Positions 18,562-64,000 of a DNA stretch of 64,000 nt are shown piece by piece. The position numbers were made by a program, and so were the translations under genes. Numbering within the stretch: position 1 is the stretch's first letter; each line of letters opens with the position of its first letter. Under the pieces are notes generated by a model that did not search any database, was not told where the DNA came from, and saw nothing but the letters and a program-made list of their open reading frames with translations. This DNA comes from Cladochytrium replicatum (Eukaryota > Chytridiomycota > Chytridiomycetes > Cladochytriales > Cladochytriaceae), in assembly GCA_025526935.1 (NCBI GenBank), contig JAHLKD010000093.1, positions 150,206 through 214,205 on the forward strand, in the 5' to 3' direction.

Positions 18562-20003
18562 TCACTCCATGTCGTCAAATGGGTTGATCTGATTGCGATC
18601 AGCAAACGGATCATTCATGCTCTCTTTGCTCTTCTTCGACTTTTTGTAATTGTCGCCCCAATTTCCTCCATCCCTAGCCTGCGTTGGAGTCTTGCAGCTA
18701 TCGACCCAGCCTCCACCAGGCTTTGTAGTTTCTTCCTCCATGTTTCCAGCATCCGATCTCCATTTCTGTGGCTGCGACTTTGAAGTATAGCCCGCTGGTC
18801 CCCAACTTGGCGGCATCAGGTTTGCGCTGCTGGTAGGTTTCTGGTTCCACGGACCGTCGTCGTCGATTGCGAACGGATCCTCCATGTCTAGATCGACGTT
18901 TGTGCCCTGCCGAGAAACAAATGAAGGGGTTTTAGTTGTGCGTTTGACTTCCTTCATACTGATCGAAGCCGCCGGCGGAGTCGCAGGTACACCTTCAGCA
19001 CCAGGACATGAGTGATCGGGCTTCCGAATCTGGGTGCGTAGTAGGAAGATACAGACGACTGACGGTGGAGTTCCTTAGCCTTCGCTCGTCTGGCGTTAAT
19101 GATGTCCACTATAAAGTACACAATCTGATTTTAAGGAATGTAAGATTAAGCAAAACGGGGTCGCCTTCGGGAGAATCTACCCACGATCCCATCAACGCCC
19201 AGGCTCCAACAGCGGTGACTTTTAGAGTGAGCAAACTTTTGCCCGTAATGAGCTGCAGCGCAGAGTCGCATGATATGTTATCAGGTCCACGAGAGACGGT
19301 AACCATAGCGTCACACATCTTATTAATCCCCGCAGAAATGTCGAGCGATACTGCGAACATTGTGATCGCGCTCAGAAGAGAGATGGCGGCCATCTGCAAA
19401 GAGGTTTTTAAATGATTGATTTTATCTAAACAATTATATTTTTTTGTTGTTGCTTACCGTACTAATCACAAACCACCTCCTCCTTCCCTTTCGCATCTGT
19501 GGTTGTTCCGGCGCACCTTCCCGAGTCCTCTTGACCCTCGTCGACGAACCTTCCTCGGCGGCTCTCTCAGTCTCAAATTCATCCCTCCTCTTACGGGCCT
19601 CTTCCTTCCCGATTCCACCACACGCTCCAAGAAGAACGAGACCATTCGTGCGAAAAGTGCTGGAACCGCAATCCCCGTTGCAGCAGAAGCACAAATTCCG
19701 AATCCACAGAGCTCATACGAGGTCTTTGTGAAATCAAGGCTCGTTGTCGAAGGATCGGTGGGAGGGTCGGTCCACAGGAGGCAGACCCTGGTTCATGACG
19801 TTGAGGATGAGAGAAGGACTGTTCCTTGATCGTGGATGGTGGACGTCACAATGATCCCTGTAAACTAATAAAAAGGATTGAGATTTCGGATGAAGGTATT
19901 CAGTTTTGTCCAGGATCAGAGCTCGTACCAGCTGGAGAGAGTGGAAGGTCACCACCGCCAGCGCTATGAGGGGTATGATGATCGTGGGAAGGACGCGTGT
20001 CAC
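18562..20003 (-). CDS. Four-span membrane protein with DPF/NPF tail motifs
   Basis: Minus strand, at least five exons. The start ATG at 20003 opens a hydrophobic segment (LPTIIIPLIALAVVTFHSL). A middle span is less certain. Two clear spans follow in the exon below 19400 (AISLLSAITMFAVSL; TLKVTAVGAWALMGSW). An intron at about 19185–19138 continues the last span (IVYFIVDI). The last exon is a hydrophilic tail with DPFAIDDD, MNDPFAD and a terminal INPFDDME; DPF/NPF motifs bind AP-2 and EH-domain endocytic proteins. The family is not recognised. Exon edges between 19450 and 19950 are uncertain. Confidence 0.5.
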
Positions 20004-51017: not shown

Positions 51018-53107
51018 CTTTTTTTTTTTTGAACTTCATAATATGTATTTATTGTCCAACCAATACATATCACCCGCTGGTGCAAAATCCAAATACAAGT
51101 GTAAAAATACACGTAAATTGGCAGCACATGGGGAGCCGTGCGAGCTGTAGGAAAGTAAAATGTTTCAAAACACTAAGGCATATCCAAATCAACAAAAGCA
51201 GACAAGATACAATCAGGAGCTGGAGACAAAACTAACTCATAACCAAGACAGTTTGACCAAATGCGGTTAAGTGCACGAAGAACAAGAACCTACTGGGAAA
51301 AAGCAGGGGAAGGATAAAAAGACTGTGGTGAAAGCATATCAATTGCAATGTCAAGAGGTAGGCGGGGATCGTCAGGCGGGCCTAAATCAAAACTAGCAGA
51401 CAAACTAGCACGCAAATGTAGACACACAGAGACATGGGCACGCGACACTACAGGGCCATCATGACAGTTCCTACAATAAGGTCAGGGGTTTGGAAACAGG
51501 CGGCCAAGGCGATATAGCAGGAACAAACGAAGACATACTGTTGGGAGATGTTGGTGTGGGGGTAGCAACAAAGGGTGGCGAAGTTTCAAATTGCGGACAG
51601 GGGCAAACGAAACTGCAATTGGTCCATTATGCGCAACAGCTAAAGACTGAAAATGCAACATCAACGGATGAAGTGGGGGGCACAACAGGCATAGGAACAA
51701 TGAGATCATTGTGACAAGCGGAAAAATAAGGAGATGAACCATAACCGACTGGAGATTACCGATAGAATTGCAACACAGCAGCTGGTAACAGAGGGCTGGA
51801 ATCACTAGACCAGCGAGCAAACATACGTGCCTGAAGGTACTTCAGCCTGAACTCAAAAGTAGGAATTTGTGCTAACAGCAACAAACCAACACGCGAAGTG
51901 GTATGGGCTAGCGAAAACAGACGACACAGTGCATGATAACAAAAACGCTCGAGTACCTGAAGCTGAGCAGTGGAAGGCCAAATAAGTGCTAAACAAACTC
52001 AAGTGAAGGTCCAATAAAAGACAAAAACAACAACCTGGCAACACGAGGAGCAGACCCACCAAAGTACGAGACATAAGGTGCAAAAAGATACAATGAGGCA
52101 CGAGCTTTCTCTAAGCGATGATCAATAGTTGCAGCAAGATCGAACCTTTCAATAGTAAAATAGTGACCAAGGTATCTAAATGAAACCTCTACAGGGAGGG
52201 CAGAGCCATGAAGCTTCAAGGGGGTGGGTAACCGTTGAGAAGATAACACAGTACACTTTGAAGGTGAAAACACGAAATGAGAAGCTAAAGCAAAATCTTC
52301 ACAAATTTTCAATGCACGTTGGGCTTGCTCAGGGGTGGCAGAAAACAAAGCTATGTCATCAGCAAAAAACAACGAATTGAAAACAGGAGTGTTATAAGAA
52401 AACCTAGCAAGATGAGAGGATTCACGACGAAGGAGCTGTGCTAAAGGATTGATGAAAACTGAGTACAAGAACGGAGACAAAACAGAACCTTGAAAAAGAC
52501 CTCGTGGAAGCGAAAACAAATCAGAAGAATAATTCTCTATAACAACCTGAGAAGAACAACGATCAAACATACTCATCAAAACAGAGATCAAACGGTTTGG
52601 AATTCTGGGAAATTGACGAAGACGTTCCCACAAAAGAGGGCTATGCACAGTATCATACGCTGCTTTAATATCTAAGAAAGTAACACAATAAGGCAGAGCA
52701 GTGCGGGAAGCCCGTCGAAGGGTAGCATCTAATGCAAAAACACACTCAACACCTGAACGATTGGCCTGGAAACCAGCTTGGGCGGGATCAAGTTTACCAA
52801 CATGAGCTACAAGCATAGGAAGCAGGGTACGCTCAAAGATTTTTCTATCACCATTGGTTAAAGTAATGGGCGGTACTGACTAATATCACCAATGGAACCC
52901 TTATTCTTCCAAACAGGTAACAACAAGCCAGCATTCCAGGCAGAGGGCGACAAACCTGAACAGAAAATAGCGTTTGAAAGTTGAACAAAAAGGATAGCAA
53001 CATCAGAAGCTAACGGCTTAAATAACTCAGCTGGAACATGGTTTGGGCCAGGAGCAGAGTTGTTTGGGGAAGAACGAATAGCACAAACAAAGTCACTAAC
53101 ACTAAGG
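51018..53107 (-). mobile_element. Non-LTR (LINE) retrotransposon, 5'-truncated and decayed
   Basis: The minus-strand reverse transcriptase reads, from 53107 down: NHVPAELFKPLA, ISQYRPITLTN (after a frame shift near 52850), ERTLLPMLVAH, QAGFQANRSGVEC, LDIKAAYDTVHS, LPRGLFQGSVLSPFLYSVFIN and the catalytic FADDIALF. The 276-codon block 52816–51989 is the longest intact part. Downstream frames are broken. An A10 run on the minus strand (about 51030–51019) is the probable poly(A) end. No endonuclease or ORF1 is present, typical of truncated insertion. Confidence 0.82.
51989..52816 (-). pseudogene. LINE reverse transcriptase fragment
   Basis: A 275-residue frame with RT motifs 2–7 including FADDIALF; it ends at a stop after LLFLSFIGPSLEFV. 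The fingers region lies upstream in another frame, so the enzyme cannot be translated whole. Confidence 0.82.
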
Positions 53108-53112
53108 ATCGG

Positions 53113-53265
53113 CGGGTTTTAGGGTCTTTCAAGTCGGGTCCGGGTCCATTGACCAAATGTACCCGACCCGAGTGCCGGGTTTTCATGGAAAATTTTCGGG
53201 TCGGATCCGGGTCGGGTATCGGGTCCAGTAGGAAAACCTAAAGTCAGACCCGAGTAAAACCCTAA
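53113..53265 (+). repeat. GGGTC/GGGTCC-rich low-complexity tract
   Basis: Multiple copies of CGGGTC, GGGTCCGGGTCC and the complement CCCGACCC within about 150 bp, between the LINE break point and the 33-bp repeats. It is G-run rich and asymmetric, so hairpins and G-quadruplex-like structures are conceivable. Confidence 0.75.
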
Positions 53266-53293
53266 CAGTTATTCCAAGCCGGAATGTTAATAA

Positions 53294-53495
53294 CATTCGG
53301 ACGGACCGTCCGACGCGAATTTATTAAATGCGGACGGACCGTCCACCTCGAATTTATCAGCCACGGACGGACCGTCCAACGCGTTTTTATTAGCCACGGA
53401 CGGACCGTCCAACGCGTTTTTATTTGGCGCGGATGGACCGTCCAACCCATTTTTATTAACCATGGACGGACCTTCCAGATGCAATTTATTCTGCT
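53294..53495 (+). repeat. Six 33-bp tandem units, each with the inverted repeat GGACGG-A-CCGTCC
   Basis: The core GGACGGACCGTCC starts at 53299, 53332, 53365 and 53398, with diverged copies at 53431 (GGATGG) and 53464 (CCTTCC): exact 33-bp spacing. Spacers end in TTTATT. Because 33 is a multiple of three, both strands stay open through the array (plus: GRTVQRVFI-type; minus: DGPSVANKNAL-type repeats), but no flanking gene supports translation. Confidence 0.92.
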
Positions 53496-54085
53496 TCAAC
53501 TGTAATTCATGCTATCTCAATCTCTCTTGTAGGTGGATTTTTCACTAAGTCTTTTCATTTCATGGGTTAGGCGATGATGCTGTTGGGAGAGACTCCTTTG
53601 ATTTCGTGGGCTAGAGCATGCTACTGGTGTAGAGAACTGATTCTTTGTATTTGTTTGTCCAAAATCTCCACCAACCATACACCTTGATAACAAGCTTCTC
53701 TGCCACCCCGGGGGTTATCAGGGCAAGACCTGGCCACAGGGTCTTCCTGCTATAGATAGTGGATCTCAACTTCCTCTCCAGCCATACCACAGCTTCTACC
53801 GCTGCTATTAGTGCAACTTCCACTCTCGTCAAAGCTAGTCAACAATCTGAAGTATGCTCTCACACGGTACAGTATACACTAGGTGCTCATGGTCCTACCG
53901 TTAGATGCAATCTAGCAGCAGTGATGTTTCTGCAATGGACTGCAATGAGTTTGTTCAACCAGGTATCACTGAAACCACTCCTAAATCTGCCCCTGGTGAG
54001 CTTCTCACTACATGTGAACATACCCAATCTCGACCTTTCTCACTAAAGGGCTCATGTTTTTTGAGTAGCCGGGCCAATCTCGATC
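53496..54085. other. Upstream region of the helicase gene
   Basis: Between the tandem repeat and the helicase start. Frames at 53759–54046 and 53905–54276 (plus) have no recognised domain; the second could contribute an N-terminal exon, since it is open up to the helicase start in another frame. Otherwise probable promoter and 5' UTR. Confidence 0.4.
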
Positions 54086-57000
54086 ATGTCCATGTTAGAC
54101 CAGCTGAGCAACCGCATCAAGGAACCCAGGATGGAGTGGATCACCAGGGAAGATGGCATGCTCGTGTGCACGCTTTGCACTGGCAAGGACCACAGGGAAT
54201 ACAAGGAGAGAGATGCTTTGAGGAAGCATTGTCGAGCTTCCCATCCCGCCAAGGAAGGGTTGGGCACCAATCCTAGAGTTCATACAGAGGAGTTCCTACG
54301 CGACGCGTTCGAGGTTGCGGGCCTCCCGGCTGCTGGCCAAGAAGGGGTTGACATGGTTCTTCGCATTCTGCAAGGCACTGTCAAGAGAGATAAGAACAGC
54401 CTCAACAATGACAGTTACGAAGAGGACCTCGCCAACGTACGTGTAGCACCCCTTCACAATGAGAACCCTGTGAACAACCCTCTGATTCAGAGCGCCATAG
54501 CTACAGGAAACCTTAGGCGTAAGCTTCCTTCATCAGGACTGCTGAAAGCATCTCACCTCTATCATTTCCTATCCTCCAGGCATAGCCTTGGATTTCTTCA
54601 TAGCAGAAGAGTTTGGTGTGCTGGTTTGTATCAGCTGTGGCATTCTCGTGGACGCGTCTTCATGCGGGGCCCATGTCCAAAAGTACCACAGTCAGGTCGA
54701 CAGGAGCACCCGCCTGATTGCTTCAAGAGCACTTTTGAATCTAAACGTGGTTAACCAGCTTACACCGCTGTGGAACAACAAGGTCATTCTGGAGCGTATA
54801 GACAGAGACAACAACAAGCTTGCCTCATTTACCCCAATCCCAGGAGTCTGTGTACAGGATGGTTTTCAGTGCCGAGGCTGCGGCTATATGTGTGGCACCT
54901 TATCTACCTTTCAAAAGCATTGTTGCAAGTCCAATCCAGCAGCAAGAGGTACCTCTCCAAAGCAGGTCAAAGTCCAGAGTATTGTCATGCCGTACTATGG
55001 ACTTCACGGTTACTGGGTCGTGCAAATGGCTCCTCTGGCACCCTATTCCCTGCCTTGAAGCTATCTGAAGAGCTTCCTCCCTGGATTCTTGGTTGCGACT
55101 TTCACCATGTGGATCCTAGGCACAGGAGCGGCCAAAAGATCAACGAGCGCATCACGTGGAAAGATGTTGTCGGGGAACAAAACCAGGACATTGGCCCGGG
55201 GTTCAACCGCAAGGAGCTGGGGAAGACTATGGTTGCCTACCACAAGGCACTGCAATCACGGATCATGCGAATGCCCTTCATGGTCAGGCAGGAAATCATG
55301 AAGCCCAGGTTTGATCAGGAGCAGCAAGTCAACGAGAAGCAGAAATTCCGACAGCTTCGGGACGCAACACTGTCACGCTATGCACAGACATGGACCTGTG
55401 TTCTGTGGCTGACGATCTTGGTGTGGAAGCGCATTATAGAGACACCCTTTGTGCAGATCAGCAGCTCATTGGGAGCATCTTTGGAGCAGTTTGCAAGAAT
55501 GTTGAAGCAGAAGGTTGGAAACTCTGGACCTGAAGAACCAACAGGAATACCACTGTTTGATCCAGTAGGGGATCAGGGGCTAGACGTGGCACAGCTGCTG
55601 TCTGGCGACACCAATCATGAGGACGAGGTGGACTCTGAAGAAAGCTCCAGTGAGTCAGGCGACGAGGATCAGGAAAGTCCGGTGGGGCCAACACATCTTC
55701 TCCCTGTTGGATCTGCGGCAGAGACAGGAGAAGAACTTTTTGCAGCTCTGCTTGCTGTTACAGAGTCTCTCTTCCAAGCAGAAACTGTCATATCAACCAT
55801 CCCCGAAAAGGTGTTCAACAATCCCCTTTTCACCTGGTGGGTGATTGATTCGAGAGATGTGCTGGGGGCCTGGAGACCTGCCAACAGCGTGTCCAGAACC
55901 GGAGCTGCATTACTCAGATGGGCGTATGTCACAGGTCTGCACCGGTTTTGGCAGGATTGCAAAGTAACCGGAAGTGTGGAGCCAGAACGTTTAATGCAGA
56001 TTGGACACTTTACCTCTCGCTTCAATAGGCACACAATGTCAGGGAGGATCGGGGTAACGTTAGCTTGGATCAAAAAGGTTGCCAGCCAGACAATTGCCAC
56101 CAATCGCATGCAGTTTGACTCCCAGGCATGTGCGTACCTGCTGGCGAAGGATACATACTTCAATATGACCACCATAGGGCATGCTTACAGTACCTTAATC
56201 AGGGACCTCAGTCTACTCATGAAGAAGATCGCTTATCCTCTCCAGCCAGATCAAGAGACATGGTTAACTCTATCGTGGCTCATAGAAAATGCTCCCGATG
56301 TTACATGTGAGACAGCGTCAGACTATGAGTGGGCGCAACACACAACTCTCTCCAGTACGCACCTGCAGCCAGCTTTGGGAGGCATATTGGCATCCTGGGT
56401 TAGAAATATTGGGCCAGTGACGGATCACCATGATCTCTGGCAGCAGCATGGACAGCTGCTGGAATGGAACAAGAAGATTGCAGCAGCGGTTCTGCTTGGA
56501 TGTGGAGCCCCGCCTCGTCTCACGGACCTAGTTGCTCAGAATGCAGTCAATTCTTCTGCAGTTCCTCGCTCTGTTTATCATAAGAATGATCGTCTGGTGC
56601 TGGTGAGCTACCGGTGCAAGACAGAACAGATAAAGGAGGAGCGGACAGTGGTTCCGCGCTTTGTTCCAAGGTCACTGGAGAGGCTGCTCATCTTCCACCT
56701 CTTTATAGTGCGGAGGTTGCTGTTCAGTACATTCAAGTGGGTGCAGAAAAAGACATTCCCCGAAGAATGTAGGCGATCCTTGTTCCTGGGAAAGAACGGG
56801 ACATTGGAATGTTCAGATTTGTCTACTACCCTCACAGAGACTTTCCAGAGCATTCTTGGGGTGCGCGTGACATATGCCGAGTACCGTAGATTTGCGAGCA
56901 ACTTTTCCCAGATTGACTCCCGACTAATGCCTGCACAAGTAAGCACGTTGCTAAGGAAAGGGGACATGGCGAACCTTGGAGAGGGCCATTCGTCACACAC

Positions 57001-60000
57001 AGCAGAGGCAATCTACAACCGAACAGGTTCAAGCATCCCTCAGCTTCTGGATGTAGTTGCAGCGGAGCGGCTGAGGATATGTGAGCACTGGTTCCAACGT
57101 TGCGGGATAGCAGATCAGGAACACGAGCAACTGGTCCCAGCAGTGACATCTCCAGAGGCAGTTCTCCGATCAGGGGACAGGTCCAATGTATCTGAGACAG
57201 TAAGAGATACGGCAAAGGTATCAGAGACGGAGACTGTGTTGGGGACCCTGACTGTGTCGGAGGTGTTGGAGACGGTGAATGTCCATGCCACATTCCGTGA
57301 AGATTTCCTAGCGAGTGGGGAGGATGCAGCAAGGGCAAATACTGTTCTGCAAGCCACGGAGCTACTTCGTACTTTTACTGGAAACCGATATGCACACTTC
57401 AGATCAGATTCCATCAGAGAGGCCATCTGCAAGAGTGAAAAACATACTCTACTGGTGTCACCAACTGGGTCTGGAAAGACCGTGGTACCGGCCATCCTGG
57501 CAGCGTTGAACACAGCAGTTCTGCATGTGCTGATATCTCCCCTACGAGCTGTTGCAGCGGAGATCAGAAAGCGACTGGAAGAGCTGCGGATTCCTTGTTA
57601 CCTGTGGAGTGAAGTGAAAGCCCACAAGAACAAGCTGAACGCAATAGCTGGTCATCCGGGGCTACTGCTATGTCAAGTAGAGCAACTTGACAATCCCGGC
57701 CTGCTTTCCACAGAATTGGTCCAAATATGGGAGAACGGGAGGCTGGGGACAGTGATACTGGACGAATGTCATATTCTCCTCACCCAACGTCACTTCCGTG
57801 AGGCCATGACCAACGTCAGGGAATTTGTACACAAGTCAAAGTATGCTAGTCGACCACTCGGAAGTTGTCGCTTTTTGTATATGACAGCCACCATGCCTGT
57901 AGTTCTCCAGTCCGCATTCGAGCAACAGGTTGGCCTGGGCCGTGGAGAGCTGAGCGTTTGCAGGTCTCCGACCGACCGTCCCAAGTTGGCATATTTTGTT
58001 AAGAGTTGGCCATTAGCGGAAGTGTGCGAGTATGTACGGGCCACATGCCAGCGCACCATCATATATATTGCCAACGAAGAACAACAGGCTCAGATCAAGA
58101 GTTTGCTTCTGGGAGGACCCAGCGCCAAAGAAGCAGTTCCGACAAACATGCACCCGTGCTGTCATCATCGATCGAAAATGTCAGAACTGGACAGAAATGT
58201 GGATCTGTGTCGATGGCTAGGCTGGGAAGGCCTAGATCAGGGGCGCGACCCTATTGCTGCAATGGCGGACATGTCAAGGGTGATGATAGCAACCAGTGGT
58301 TTGGGTGCAGCTCTGAATGTGGACGACGTTGGCCTTGTAGTTATTGTCAGTTGCTCTGGGATGATGGAGCTCAGTCAGATGGGGGGGAGGGCTGCAAGAA
58401 ACGGTTCAGTTGGCATTGAGATCCTCATTCGGAATGAGGGGTTTATGCATGTACGCACCGAAGAAGAACTATCTCCCGACCGAGCTGCACTACTGGAGTA
58501 CATGCAAACCAGTTCATGCTTGCGCAGAGCAAAGATCACATTCTTGGACGGAAACCCCAATGCACCCGAGTGTCGCAATTCCTGTGCGAAGCTGTGCGGA
58601 AACTGTGGCGGACAGTCCAACCTTTACCTAAAATTGGGGCAGCAACAGGAGACTCCACCTGGTCAGCAATACAGCGGTACCCTCTTTAGCAGCACATCCT
58701 CCACAACCACCTCTACGCAATCGGACGTATCGCGCGTTCCAGAAACTCCGAGGATCATCAGGACACAAACTCCAAACTACTGGGACTCACCTACTCCACT
58801 ATATGGGCCTCCTGGTGCAACGCAGCCTTTAGGGACTTATCACGAAAGACCCTTCCTGATCAAACCCATACCTAATAGGGGGCACATATCTCCAGGTAAG
58901 TGTTAGTTGAAAAGACAATAAGTTAACCACTAAGGGTTATTGGCAAAATTTGCACTCAGACTCATTCTCGGGACATCATTTTGGCAAACAACGGTCATCT
59001 TCCAGCTCATACACCTTGAAGAACCAGAAGGATTATGAAGAGAGTCCATCTTCTAGCTCATACACCATGAAGAACCAGATGGATTATGAAGAGAATCCAT
59101 CTGGTCTGTCTCTGAAAAGGCCAAAGGTTTGGATCCCCGTTTTGACATGTATGTTATACTTCGCCTGATCATCTTTCAAGTAGTTGCTTCAGCACTCCTC
59201 TGTTAAGTCAGATTGGTCTTGGTCACACCCGGAGGATGGTTCAGTTCAGTGGCTTCCAGCGGATGTTGGGAGCACCCAGTCAAAGTGGAGGACCTTTACT
59301 ACAGAACACAAACCTAATGATTTCCAGGTAGATATGGGTTTGTCACTGTCACAGCAAAATCCACACCCTAAGGTCTTTCGGCCATCTGCAAACCCATTAC
59401 CTGCTGTCTCCACAGCTTCAGTCATCCCACACCTTAAGAGAGACTTCACAGCTCTATACCATAGCATCTTCAACCGTAGTAGGTGTATTGTGTGTGAGAC
59501 TTTCCAAGGTTTCCCCTGTGGTTGCCAGAATGCGGTGCAGACTGTTGCAAGTTCCTCAGCAACACGGCGTGACCATCGTTGCTGGGTCTGCGGAGAACCG
59601 GGACATCGTCGGTCTGACTGTGCTGCAAAGAAGGCGTTAGACAACTTCGCAAAATTCCGACCTAACCAGTTATGCATCTACTGTCTCCTTCGGCGGACAC
59701 AACAGCATCATTCCTCAAACGAACCGTTCTGCACCACGGACAATAAACGAGCCGCTCTTCACTGCTATTGTCGTCTCCACTACGAAAGCGCCAAGAGTAA
59801 TGACGTTTCGTCCTGGCTGAAGCGGAGATATAGGAGTCAAGAGGTAGTAGATGCTTTGAGGCAGTTAGACAGTTGGGTTGAGTGGGGTATCCAGACCTAC
59901 AGTATTCACGATTTTAGCAACAACTTCAACATAGCTGGTGGGAATATATGTCGGGCACTTGTTCTGGTGTTCGATATACTTCTTTCAGAGGAGGGCTGTT

Positions 60001-60002
60001 AG
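54086..60002 (+). CDS. Subtelomeric OrsD-type / tyrosine-recombinase-like / RecQ-type helicase / CCHC protein
   Basis: Proposed exons: 54086–54518, 54580–55019, 55061–58895, 58960–59126, about 59184–60002; about 1,890 residues. The N-terminus has a C2H2-like finger (CTLCTGKDH…HCRASH) and an OrsD-like double zinc region (CISCGILV…HVQKYH; CRGCGYMCGTLSTFQKHCC). Residues around 56455–57040 show a tyrosine-recombinase-like order: Arg in APPRLTDL, Lys in RCKTEQ, YAEYRR, then GHSSHTAEAIY. The helicase follows: SPTGSGKT (57458), VILDECH (57750), MTATMP, ATSGLGAALNV and QMGGRAARNG (58376). The C-terminus carries a CCHC knuckle CWVCGEPGHRRSDC (59579). Telomere-linked RecQ-like helicases are known from many fungi. 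The intron at 55020–55060 is only 41 nt and might be a frame shift. Confidence 0.8.
58996..59098 (+). repeat. 51-bp tandem duplication in the helicase C-terminal linker
   Basis: Two 51-bp units encode SSSSYTLKNQKDYEESP and SSSSYTMKNQMDYEENP, with a few substitutions, so older than the coilin repeat. Confidence 0.85.
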
Positions 60003-60162
60003 ATTGTTATCTGTGGCAATGTAGAATTTCAACAAAATCGTAATTTACCCTGTGGCGATCTATGTCAATAACAAGCTTAGAATAGAGGAGGATCAGGTTA
60101 GATATAGACAGCTGTATTTAATGACCAAGCAAATTGTCCACGATATTTAACTGCCTCCACAA

Positions 60163-63100
60163 CTAAGTGTTTTCTTCTGTGTTTAAAAAGACACCTTTGT
60201 GCATTTTGAATACAAGGCACACCCGGAATTCGCGTGGGCTAGTTCCCCACTTCTCCAGCATATGTTCAAGGGCGCATGATCTGATGAAAAGAATGTCACC
60301 ACTCTTGAAAGGAATCTTAACTCCGAGATCAGGAAGCACGGTCCTCCCACCCTTGAATCTGCCAAAGCACACCATCGCACACCAACCATCTGGAATGTCC
60401 TTGAGATCCCAGTGTCGGACTATCCATTGATTGAGAACAACCACAAGCATTGCAAAAGTCTTGTTCGTATGGTTGTCCCAGAGTAATTTGCCGCTAGGGT
60501 TCAGCCTCCCCATCGCCGCACTGTACCGCCCCGCCATATCTGGGTCAAGGCGCCTGAATAATGCCTGGACAGTCTCAGCGAGGTCAAGAATATGTTGGTG
60601 GCGTAAGAACTCAACAACCGCATCTGTTTTTCCGCTGCTGCCGGGGAATGTTTCAGCGGAGGTACCGATGTCACCTCCAGGGGCACCTCCCGTTGGCTGC
60701 CACACACCAAGGTGGTAAACGCCGTTGTGAGTGGGCTGCAGATCCCAATTGACATGCCGATTGTCCTTTGCTGACTTAACAGGCGGATATTTTTCCACGA
60801 ACTTTTCAACGGTGCTGGTGATTCCCGGTGCCAGAGCAGAAACAGCGTTCGGAACCCAAAAGAACAATCTACGGCCCGTGCAGTCGACACCCTGAAGAGG
60901 CGCAAGCGGTCGGTGATCCCCCATCCGCGACGTGACATCAATGTAGTCCTCTGCCTCCTTAAGGTCGAGCAAATACGCCTCTTCCGCTGTGAGTTGTGGT
61001 TTCAGGTGTGTGTTGGGTTGTCTGGCTGCAGGTCTAGAAGCGAGGTCCTGCAGCTTGACCCGGAAGCGCAATTCCAGGGTTCTCTCACGTACATCCTTCA
61101 GAAGAGCATCTCGCCGCTCAACAGATAGGTCAGTTGCCGAGGGGATACTGAAGAAGAGTCGTTGTGCAGGGGTCAGTTCCGGGGTAACAACATCAATCTG
61201 AGTAAATGCAAAAACAGTTAATAGGGGGACATACTGAAAGTATGTTCCATACAGAGGTACTCGGGGCTGCAAGCACTGCCTGGGGTATCGCTGGAACGAC
61301 GTTGTCCGCTGCAAGTTTATGTGCAAGGTGCTCAAACTTGGATCGACAGGAAGCCTGCGCATATTCATGAAGTCAACATGTCAGTACCACTCCTTGGACG
61401 GCTTAAGTCTGCCGGGGGTACCTTTTTTGAGTACTTTATGTTTCCCAACTCCCAGGCACGTTGAAAATTGAAACTTTCCTGCTTGTCAAAAATAGAGATG
61501 GGTTTCATGACAGAATGATTAGAAAAAAGCCCATACCGAAGGTACCGAAGGTTTTCGTGTTTGAAACGCTAGGGAACTTGGGACTGCTTGGTGTCCCATC
61601 TCTGCCGGTGACCCAGACGCATGCTGATAGGTAGGAGAATCAGCAGCACAGGAAGCACCAATTTCCGAACCCAAGTGTTCCAAGACAGTAACCCCCTCCA
61701 TATCAATCGCTTGTGTCTGAAAAACAGTGTTGGTAATGGTCCCATACGAAAGGAAAAATCATATTAACCCTTTCACTGGATTGCTCCATGCGGACGTTCA
61801 GAAACCCTGCATCCAACCAACGGGTGGAAGTACGATAACGCTGTTTGAGCTCATTCACAAACTCTGTGCCATATCCCGGCAGGGTGACGAGACTGCGCAG
61901 AAGGGGTTTGTTGAGATGATGCAACCCATTCCATCCCACCCCAGAAACAACAGTGGCTGTGTAGTAGCCACGTTTGACAATGTCCAGGAACGTTTTCAAA
62001 AGTGTCTTTGGATTGCGAAAGACCTTCACATCTTCCAGGGCAACACCGGCAGCCTCATGACCGTGGGACACCACTTTGGTTGAAATTTCTTCCAGCGTGG
62101 AGACGATCGGGCTGTTACGGCGAAATTCTCTCCACTGAGAGGCGTCATAGGGATTCGGAAAGGCTCCACCTTCTCCATTGAATGCGTATTCCAGGGTATC
62201 CACTCCGGACCTGGCGAATTCGAGGTAACACCTTATGCAATGAACCAGGGATAGGCAGTGGAGTTCATCTGACAGTTTTGCATATCGACGCTCCCACAAC
62301 ACGCTGGATAACAGCAACTGTTGGTTACTTGCTCCTGGGAACAAAACCTGCCGAGAGTATCAAGGTCGAACTTCAAAATCAAGATCAAGGTACGCTGAGA
62401 TACCTGCTGACCATCCGGAGACATCATAGCGGAAATTTCTGTCAAGGCAGCATCAGACTCAATGTCACTAACTGATACCTCTGCTAAAGTCTCCAAAGCC
62501 AGCTTGATCCTCTCTAGGTCCAGGGCATACTTCCATGCCTTAGAACTAACCCGGTCTGCAGTTTTGGCCTGACGTCTCCACAGTGACAGGTCCTCATTCC
62601 ATTGCGGTTTTTCTTGCCCCCGGTTTTGCCAGTTAGAAAGCAGTGAATCATGATCAGGGTCTGGGATTGACACAACCTTCTTTTTCTTCAGTCTACGAGA
62701 GGTGCGTCTGGCGTTCATCCTCCTTTTCTTAGGCACGGCGGCTGCGCTGGGTGGGTTAGACATTTCCACTTCATTGTCTGACATCATGATTGGTTCACTT
62801 GCGTCGTCGCTGGTGTAACCCATTTCCACTTCGTTGTCAGCCTGCATTATAAATTCACTAGTGTCGTCGCTGCCACCCTCCTTTCCTCCAGGATGCCCAG
62901 AAACATGTGGAACTGGTAGAGAGAATGTAGAGAGGTCAGAAGTATGAGCCATGTGGTCAGAGACAGCTGACTCGGGAGAATCAAAGGTGGAGGGCTCTGG
63001 AGATGAGAGTGAACAGGCCGCGGCATCCTGACAATGATACTGACGGCGCGCTGAACCAAGATAAAAAATAAGCATAGTTAGAATACAGTATGCAGGGTTG

Positions 63101-63817
63101 TGGTTCGGGGTAGATATCACCGTGTTGTCTTTCAATATCCTCAAGAACTCTTATTGCATCTGCGACAGTCCTGTCCGGAATGCGAGGGACCTGCTCAAGG
63201 GGCCCCAGTAAATTACACGTCATTTTCAATGTCTCAAGCGTATCTCCAAACAGCGAAGTCCAGAAAGCGGCGTCAATGATCTGAGGAAAAGTTTCGGACA
63301 GGAGAGTAACATCTTCTTGAAGCTGAACAAGACCACGGCAAATTCGAGAAAGCTCTGTAAACTTTTCCGTATTTTGTAGATAAAGGGAGAGAACGGACTT
63401 CATCGCGTACGCTGCACGACAATGGGTGGATATGGCACGAAGTAGGCAATCTTTTTCAAGTAAAGGCACGGAATTTCCCTCCTGTACGATAGGGTCAGTT
63501 AAAGGACGGACAGATTCAGACTGAACCGCGAACCAATTCCGACTCAGACAACTCAGAACGGCGCAATGTCCGCGGAAGATGGATAGGGTCTCACATCGAT
63601 TGCATCTGCGCAGTGTAGAAGTTAATTTGGTTCGGGTAAATGTAGAGGAAACACGGCAGTTTCAATGTGGAGTAGCTGTTCTTCTGTCCTGCTCTTGCAC
63701 GCGGGAAAGTGGTTCCAACCGGGTACTATGAGTCACGCGACTTCGTGAGGTCCGTACCTCGCAAACTTTGGAGTTGGTTTCCGGCTCAACCGCGCTCGCG
63801 CGCGACTGGCACCCCAT
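60163..63817 (-). CDS. Telomere-adjacent gene with C-terminal TET/JBP-like 2OG-Fe(II) dioxygenase domain
   Basis: Minus strand. In-frame exons: 63605–63121, 63050–62404, 62347–61769, 61716–61537, 61478–61422, 61354–61235, 61197–60163, plus a possible first exon starting at the ATG at 63817 (MGCQSRASAVEPE); about 1,050 residues. The N-terminal region has Cys pairs (CNRCE) and no known domain; the middle has an acidic/basic linker (KKRRMNARRTSRRLKKKK). The C-terminal domain shows HWD (first iron ligands, HxD), GRFKGGRTVLPDLGVKIPF, a GDILFI strand, a distal His in CALEHM and an Arg in EFRVCLVF (2-oxoglutarate ligand). This is the JBP/TET-type arrangement. Such enzymes oxidise 5-methylcytosine or thymine in DNA; the substrate here is unknown. 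The first exon and its junction are unresolved. Confidence 0.62.
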
Positions 63818-63862
63818 ACAAGCCAAATAGATGAAGAAGGCCACTTTTGGTATACCGAGTCT

Positions 63863-64000
63863 GGGTTAGTTAGGGTTAGTTAGGGTTAGTTAGGGTTAGT
63901 TAGGGTTAGTTAGGGTTAGTTAGGGTTAGTTAGGGTTAGTTAGGGTTAGTTAGGGTTAGTTAGGGTTAGTTAGGGTTAGTTAGGGTTAGTTAGGGTAGTT
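63863..64000 (+). repeat. Telomere-like array of a 10-bp unit (GGGTTAGTTA)
   Basis: Thirteen perfect 10-bp units (63863–63992) followed by a partial unit missing one T (GGGTAGTT). The G-rich strand runs 5' to 3' toward the window end, as at a right-hand chromosome end. The unit equals TTAGGG alternating with TTAG. The window stops inside the array. Confidence 0.9.

Follow-up and report, generated by a model that had tools for sequence, protein, structure and literature searches.

The right end of contig C93 of the chytrid Cladochytrium replicatum (JAHLKD010000093.1, 214,205 bp) raises the question of what kind of genetic unit places a helicase gene and a TET/JBP dioxygenase gene face to face beside a telomere. 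The stretch analysed here, referred to as the window, comprises 64,000 nucleotides (bases 150206-214205 of the contig) and ends where the contig ends, in 13.9 copies of the repeat GGGTTAGTTA; the genome assembly holds 50.5 Mb in 198 contigs. Near-identical proteins carry the name Cladochytrium replicatum (BJ742DRAFT). An earlier note on this DNA had described convergent helicase/recombinase and dioxygenase genes next to the telomere; a rightward helicase open reading frame (ORF) does face a leftward Tet_JBP ORF, and the Pfam matches and the terminal repeats agree with that description. The last 10.6 kb of the window proved to be a single copy of a multi-copy repeat, and the module of the earlier note to be part of a larger element. 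One terminus of this element, at window position 53260, is fixed and is attached to many different targets, among which CCT is preferred.

The gene pair lies within a multi-copy, chromosome-end repeat

Mapping of the last 12 kb of the window onto 12 fetched places of the genome revealed that the unit starts at window 53260-53261 and stops at varying positions. Copies are many and mostly 97-100% identical, as revealed by DNA searches of the genome; these searches scored the best candidates only (40 in three of the searches), and all copy counts are lower bounds. The array of inverted repeats, which had been placed outside the module, lies inside the unit. Nor does the gene pair fill a self-contained 10 kb between array and telomere, since the window copy is truncated and telomere-capped at about 63864, while other copies extend up to about 9 kb further. 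The longest copy, on contig C11, spans the stretch between base 19764 and the telomere repeats at 94 and thus measures at least 19.7 kb; a second contig, C193, follows it to C11 base 315, except for an inserted Ty1/copia-like element. This copy carries the helicase gene, here termed TLH (telomere-linked helicase), in rightward orientation, the TET/JBP gene in leftward orientation, and then further leftward ORFs.

Among the scored loci, 28 helicase copies extend as far as the stop codon; the dioxygenase lies beside 25 of them, always in the same orientation, and in 23 of these 25 the two stops are separated by 1256-1263 bp (the outliers being C47, where 5 kb of DNA is inserted, and C70, an old copy in which the distance is shorter). 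The three copies lacking a dioxygenase are ended by the contig end (C61), cut by another unit (C53) or probably cut by another unit (C46). Helicase copies standing alone in random contexts, the pattern that the earlier note had named as refuting a module, did not appear among these loci. The 160 bp previously given as the distance between the two stops applies only if the zinc-knuckle ORF at 59334-60002 ends the helicase gene; from the stop of the helicase ORF itself to that of the dioxygenase there are 1,256 bp in the window. Three NCBI gene models (P0002, P0004 and P0010) indeed splice TLH into this region, terminating in another frame. At the dioxygenase 3' ends on C66, C168 and C150, no helicase was present among the scored matches.

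Thirty-seven of 40 TLH loci lie within 15 kb of the contig end toward which they are directed, as compared to 6% if position and orientation were random, with five of the 40 lying on contigs shorter than 20 kb, where proximity to an end says little. Of the selfish and the protective roles that had been suggested for the pair, the selfish one is favoured by the constant pairing and orientation, the terminal location and the fixed terminus, and nothing was found in favour of the protective one.

Pfam scans of the element ORFs identified no reverse transcriptase (RT) and no DDE transposase, small and unscanned ORFs remaining outside this statement, and likewise no HUH Rep or PIF1-type helicase in the ORFs scanned. 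The RTs that were encountered are part of inserted long terminal repeat (LTR) elements or of the flank, and not of the element. Relatives of the TLH or TET/JBP protein were not detected in viral contigs by tblastn.

A fixed proximal terminus joined mostly to CCT targets

Proximal junctions were sought in the fetched DNA with a 17-base seed taken from the terminus, allowing up to 3 changes; as the terminus served as the seed, units that have lost it would escape the count. This yielded 67 junctions, at 45 contig ends and two internal places (C53 and C70), inclusive of a doubtful start at 4560 of L021, which diverges after 11 bases and was retained. The unit begins with CTAACAG at 63 of the 67 junctions and with one base altered at the other four. 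The base immediately preceding it is C in 60 cases, T in six and G in one, and the bases farther upstream are near random. The terminus reads CCCTAAC, which is telomeric C-strand sequence directed opposite to the telomere it faces, and a further telomere repeat ahead of it is seen at none of the 67 junctions. Since units begin at 53260-53261, the array of 33-bp palindromic units at 53298-53490 forms the terminal part of the unit, and the terminus is predicted to fold as single-stranded DNA (z -7.1).

The native, unbroken target is known for 40 junctions, which represent 36 distinct sites (a few target pairs are near-identical, and the number of independent sites is slightly lower). The sequence at the break is CCT in 26 of the 36, CCG in three, CCA in two and TCT in two, with an extra base at the joint in the remaining three; across these flanks, 1.6% of all trinucleotides are CCT (P = 5e-39). 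None of the targets read consists of telomere repeats; among them are further copies of the unit, a Ty3/gypsy element and sequence resembling the RT-bearing flank of the window.

Variable distal ends and telomere healing

The distal end of the unit differs among copies, which finish in telomere repeats, at a break, or where they are cut by the next element in the same orientation. Of nine ends examined, five have telomere repeats joined directly to internal unit sequence or to an LTR element inserted there, the point of capping being different in each; at three of the remaining ends the capped DNA lies outside the references used, and the end C11L matched only itself.

We also looked for the continuation of the target on the distal side of each new unit, using 23 junctions at 11 contig ends. 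The continuation is known for 19 of these, one of which is a self-match, leaving 18 informative junctions. In ten of the 18, no trace of the continuation was found distal to the new unit; seven of the ten lie on ends with telomere repeats, the others being C11R, C13R and C58L, which end without them. C13 is a gapped scaffold (71% N in L025 3001-10000), and more DNA may therefore be hidden at C13R. At the other eight junctions, matches to the continuation sit at the corresponding place inside a newer unit. In five of these, the 40 bases upstream of the match also fit the upstream sequence of the target (88-100%), and in the other three (C8R 6350, C16R 5716 and 6756) the placement in a newer unit is shown by the unit map. 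The picture that emerges is one of chromosome ends that are eroded, healed and then joined to a new unit, with the units pointing one way.

A 30-base query of telomere repeat occurs in the genome, without mismatch, 338 times in forward and 324 times in reverse orientation; the first matches, those listed, are all about 170 bases or less from the end of a contig (on C21, the left end). The telomere repeat of this chytrid is the 10-mer GGGTTAGTTA and not TTAGGG, which is possibly informative as to the template of its telomerase RNA.

The TLH gene and its recombinase-like region

The helicase ORF of the window (55229-58906, plus strand; PF00270, E 3e-14) is only the larger part of a gene that begins further upstream (Table 1); in the window, a deletion of 79 bp at about 55047 disrupts this gene. 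The length difference of 75-79 bp at this position was also considered as an intron and rejected: in the C11 copy (P0001) the longer form is coding and the second exon runs uninterrupted for 1,467 codons, so that the difference represents a deletion in the window copy. In addition to its OrsD domain, P0001 possesses a DEAD domain (E 4e-14). Another protein, P0011 (jgi source), aligns with TLH across both the helicase and the region ahead of it, and a profile built from the alignment of P0001 and P0011 finds at least 131 proteins when 8,000 candidates are scored. Among the matches listed are many mushroom proteins that combine OrsD and DEAD domains (Termitomyces, Suillus, Pisolithus), and others of about 600 amino acids (aa) for which neither domain is listed. 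With TLH genes the window gene shares a RecQ motor, a subtelomeric position and a multi-copy status, its likeness to the named TLH proteins being by description only.

The region between the OrsD domain and the motor displays five conserved residues, R672, K706, R795, H829 and Y838 of P0001. In an alignment of 34 proteins (P0001 and 33 chosen from those found in the homology searches), R672, K706 and Y838 are present in all 33 other proteins, R795 in 31 of 31 and H829 in 32 of 33, with H829 and Y838 surrounded by a GHSxxT...Y motif. The order of this pentad is that of the tyrosine-recombinase active site, the His of the HxxR motif being absent. The spacing is near that of members of the family. 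As profile methods fail to confirm the family, with no tyrosine-recombinase support in Pfam or PHROGs, the region is termed recombinase-like and is not assigned as a member. The pentad recurs where no helicase domain is listed: the proteins of about 600 aa (P0039, P0045, P0060 and others) have the recombinase-like region with all five residues.

The TET/JBP dioxygenase gene

The dioxygenase ORF of the window matches PF12851 with E 7e-7 and 29.0-30.8 bits, which is under the Pfam cut-off of 34.9 bits. Across the genome there are 23 Tet_JBP hits (E<=0.01), every one of which overlaps a copy of the element; 15 of the 23 exceed the cut-off, and none contains a stop inside the match. H319, D321 and H369, which we take to be the iron ligands (HxD...H), are invariant in seven sequences, including homologues from Geranomyces that are 29-51% identical. 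Compared to PDB, the TET/JBP profile retrieves three weak chains, two of them Tet-like dioxygenases (E 0.06 and 0.09) and one the unrelated YpmB (E 0.07). The gene is best explained as anti-silencing cargo. The CpG observed/expected ratio of the element, 0.65 versus 0.95 in window 1-50000, suggests past cytosine methylation, albeit as an unspecific sign.

A proposed mechanism of chromosome-end attachment

With slightly better than even confidence, we read the repeat as a one-ended, selfish mobile element that attaches to chromosome ends, with TLH as its mobility protein and TET/JBP as its anti-silencing cargo. The mobility of the element is well supported; its enzymology we infer. Ends appear to grow by attachment, erode, become healed by telomere addition and accept a new copy, in the manner of HeT-A in Drosophila. 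The joining would be performed by TLH. RecQ motors translocate in the 3'-5' direction (PMC7473861), and a motor loaded on the telomeric 3' overhang would consequently peel the G-rich strand inward, stripping it centromere-ward up to the palindrome-rich terminus. There, the terminus would be recognised by the tyrosine-recombinase-like domain, whose tyrosine nucleophile could link it to a CCT target; the chromosome end that receives it may be intact or broken. Some recombinases act in much this way on folded single strands. Fill-in or break-induced synthesis would then finish the copy, and a second junction would be unnecessary since the far end is already a telomere. The TET/JBP protein, finally, would oxidise methylated bases on the element, so that silencing is resisted; such a role has been proposed for TET/JBP proteins of other fungal transposons (PMC12730594).

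Several observations weigh against this reading. The identity of the CCT target could also be accounted for by primed synthesis or by microhomology end-joining in which TLH has no part, and erosion could itself have stripped the distal continuations of the targets. Three of the 40 TLH loci (C53, C70 and C79) are not terminal in the expected orientation. For the recombinase-like region, PF00589 has no match anywhere in the genome at E<=10, the profile of the region matches no PDB chain, and a comparison by hhalign with five E. coli tyrosine recombinases, in an alignment that is shallow, returns a probability of 0.3%; the residue pattern is the sole basis of the assignment. Variation among copies gives no clear sign of purifying selection in either gene: pN/pS is 0.80 for TLH (91:35 changes, plus 2 new stops, with 11:2 in the recombinase-like part) and 0.52 for TET/JBP (10:6 changes), in a comparison where at least two copies were counted twice (C183/L010 and C8R/L014). 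A weak signal of this kind is, however, expected if the copies are very young or homogenised. CpG depletion, moreover, is not confined to the element: the ratio is low in a gypsy element as well, at 0.59, and in the RT flank, at 0.70, though not in a copia element (1.05).

Alternative explanations

The main rival is retro-attachment in trans, whereby an RNA with the 3' end ...AACTGTTAGG would be primed on eroded CCT ends by an RT from elsewhere, with TLH and TET/JBP as passengers. It accounts for the same geometry, as a fixed proximal end combined with truncated, telomere-capped distal ends is the signature of endonuclease-deficient Penelope elements (PMC3846280), and both the telomere-like terminus and the CCT identity, which suits primer annealing, are in its favour. 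We nevertheless consider it unlikely, given that the scanned ORFs of an element whose longest copy is about 20 kb include no RT, and that the TLH intron on the plus strand and the predicted TET/JBP introns on the minus strand are both retained. The latter point is no obstacle in itself, because Penelope elements can move intron-containing genes (PMC3846280). Less probable again is an ordinary two-ended insertion by a tyrosine recombinase at CCT, in the manner of Cryptons or Starships, with the distal flanks subsequently lost by end erosion. The recombinase-like gene is indeed the first at the fixed end and directed inward, CCT would represent a short target core, and C70 holds an old internal copy; yet the 18 informative junctions show no target continuation beyond what newer copies explain, a constant right end is not seen, the recombinase is without profile support, and 37 of 40 loci are terminal in a single orientation.

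We attach very little weight to the idea of a passive, Y'-like subtelomeric repeat that spreads by homologous recombination and carries its genes along. Copies that are mostly 97-100% identical at many ends make it probable that homologous exchange raises the copy number, and equal-size tandem units on C86 (1,061 bp) and C53 (1,562 bp) are of the kind such spread would leave, but homologous exchange does not yield a base-exact border at 36 distinct CCT-type targets. Least credible of all is an origin from a plasmid or minichromosome that was linear and capped by telomeres: its left telomere would have been reduced to CCTAAC and then fused to broken ends through microhomology-mediated end joining. 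While the match of the terminus to the telomeric C-strand and the CCT identity are what this would produce, end joining predicts variable numbers of telomere repeats at the joint, against which stand 67 junctions devoid of any additional repeat.

Comparison with known systems

If the reading as a one-ended attaching element is tentatively carried further, the unit may represent a new class of DNA element, a view we hold with distinctly less than even confidence: only one of its ends would be specific to it, the second being a telomere, and a fusion of RecQ motor and tyrosine recombinase would peel the G-rich strand of a chromosome end and join it to other ends by a single site-specific junction at CCT, with TET/JBP deployed against silencing. 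TLH genes, RecQ genes of subtelomeric regions, are known from Ustilago, Magnaporthe, Metarhizium, Agaricus bisporus and Fusarium. They are described as subtelomeric, multi-copy RecQ-like helicases with full and truncated copies (PMC7473861, PMC12857005), and discussed as host genes possibly linked to telomere maintenance, with a function unestablished since the 1990s; the paper on FoTeRs terms them host genes (PMC12857005). The window helicase is likewise subtelomeric, multi-copy and RecQ-like, and its homology to mushroom proteins covers the recombinase-like region as well as the helicase. It differs in that the element adds a defined terminus, a CCT preference, OrsD, the recombinase-like region and TET/JBP cargo; here, TLH travels with a sharp terminus and a target preference. 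Were the proposed mechanism true, fungal telomere-linked helicase genes would be mobility proteins of such elements and not host telomere-maintenance genes. A literature search, whose coverage did not extend to several key older papers, listed no paper that describes TLH paired with TET, or TLH acting as a recombinase.

TET/JBP genes are carried by the fungal DNA transposons KDZ, EnSpm, Plavaka, hAT, IS3EU and Helitron (Kojima 2025, PMC12730594), and the text of that paper contains no mention of a tyrosine recombinase, Crypton or chytrid, with 'telomer' in one reference title only. Like these transposons, the present element is mobile with TET/JBP as a likely anti-silencing factor; unlike them, it belongs to a chytrid, resides at chromosome ends and has no DDE or HUH enzyme in the scanned ORFs. 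If the reading holds, chytrids and a chromosome-end element join the list of TET/JBP captures.

Retroelements of chromosome ends offer a parallel in geometry. HeT-A/TART/TAHRE and endonuclease-deficient Penelope elements (Athena, Terminons) form head-to-tail arrays with fixed proximal and truncated distal ends and telomere healing (PMC5537684, PMC3846280). The element described here shares the fixed proximal and variable distal end at chromosome ends, but those are retroelements having or needing an RT, and none is found in the element ORFs scanned. HeT-A itself is not known to encode an RT. MoTeR and FoTeR elements are telomere-associated, with truncated copies outnumbering full ones, and FoTeRs co-localise with TLH (PMC12857005). 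Telomere association, truncated copies and the company of TLH are common to both systems; MoTeR and FoTeR, however, encode an RT and are seated in telomere repeats, whereas the targets read here are of other sequence. Cryptons and Starships have a tyrosine recombinase gene, a short target core and two-ended insertion. A recombinase-like gene and a short core are what our element has in common with them, and the lack of a profile match is what separates it. The Y' elements of yeast are subtelomeric helicase units amplified among ends and are not known to have a fixed terminus at unrelated targets, in which they differ from the present element with its fixed terminus at 36 distinct targets. If the reading is correct, the present element suggests that a mobile element can remodel the ends of fungal chromosomes even though it has no evident RT of its own.

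Feature coordinates

Table 1. Positions of the features of the window copy, with the evidence for each
Feature	Window position	Strand	Evidence or remark
Fixed proximal terminus (C)CTAACAGTTATT... and palindrome-rich array	53260..53500	+	67 junctions, single-stranded DNA fold, tandem array
TLH exon 1	54086..54518	+	ORF and phase
TLH intron	54519-54579	+	Starts GTAAGC, ends CCAG
TLH exon 2, broken in window copy	54580..58906	+	ORF and copy comparison
OrsD domain	about 54594-54932	+	OrsD E 4.7e-12 in P0001
Tyrosine-recombinase-like pattern (R 56516, K 56618, R 56885, H 56987, Y 57014)	56516..57016	+	34 TLH homologues
DEAD/RecQ-like motor, first half	57425..57904	+	PF00270 E 3.3e-14
ORF with CCHC zinc knuckle (59580-59621)	59334..60002	+	PF00098 E 5e-5
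TET/JBP dioxygenase ORF	60163..61368	-	PF12851; NCBI models P0012 and P0013 start the last exon at about 61197
Oxygenase domain with HxD and distal H	60199-60594	-	PF12851
Upstream coding stretches of the TET/JBP gene with GT-AG introns (predicted; including ORF 62233-63075)	61706..63661	-	Frames; NCBI model P0013
Distal segment of window copy	63232..63864		Unit mapping
Telomere repeats GGGTTAGTTA capping the truncation	63863..64000	+	Unbroken element continues GAGTCTGGCGAGCAGG...

Further observations on copies, derivatives and insertions

The distal part of the long copy on C11 (L019 4205-6576) contains three leftward ORFs of 242, 210 and 325 aa, which are perhaps one intron-containing gene. 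These ORFs match no Pfam family, and one of them, compared with PDB sequences, gave no convincing match.

Shortened forms of the unit also occur. Internally deleted derivatives of ~1.1 kb, in which 53261-53797 is fused to 63232-63864, keep the fixed end (e.g., in L025, L032 and L033), and the distal segment 63232-63864 alone has at least 32 matches, mostly at about 96% identity. Tandem arrays of the unit's first part are found on C86 (223719-228573; equal-size, five starts spaced 1,061 bp) and on C53 (L031; four starts, three of which are spaced 1,562 bp), and the cuts read in these arrays, two on C86 and three on C53, fall at a single shared CCT site per array. Within C53 115000-135000 (L030 and L031), internal units stand head-to-head in opposite orientation, an arrangement like that of a chromosome-end fusion or a misassembly. 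An internal, older copy of about 94% identity lies at 51323-55663 of C70, a 306-kb contig.

Retroelements have entered several copies. A Ty1/copia-like element of about 5.3 kb, with 439-bp terminal repeats that are 100% identical, is inserted in a unit copy on C193 (L079), and a Ty3/gypsy element with a chromodomain in one on C5 (L028), where telomere repeats adjoin LTR-element sequence. In the window itself, an RT ORF (PF00078) at 51989-52816 is directly proximal to the unit, and flank DNA at 51307-51455 matches the target that carries an attached unit on C11R.

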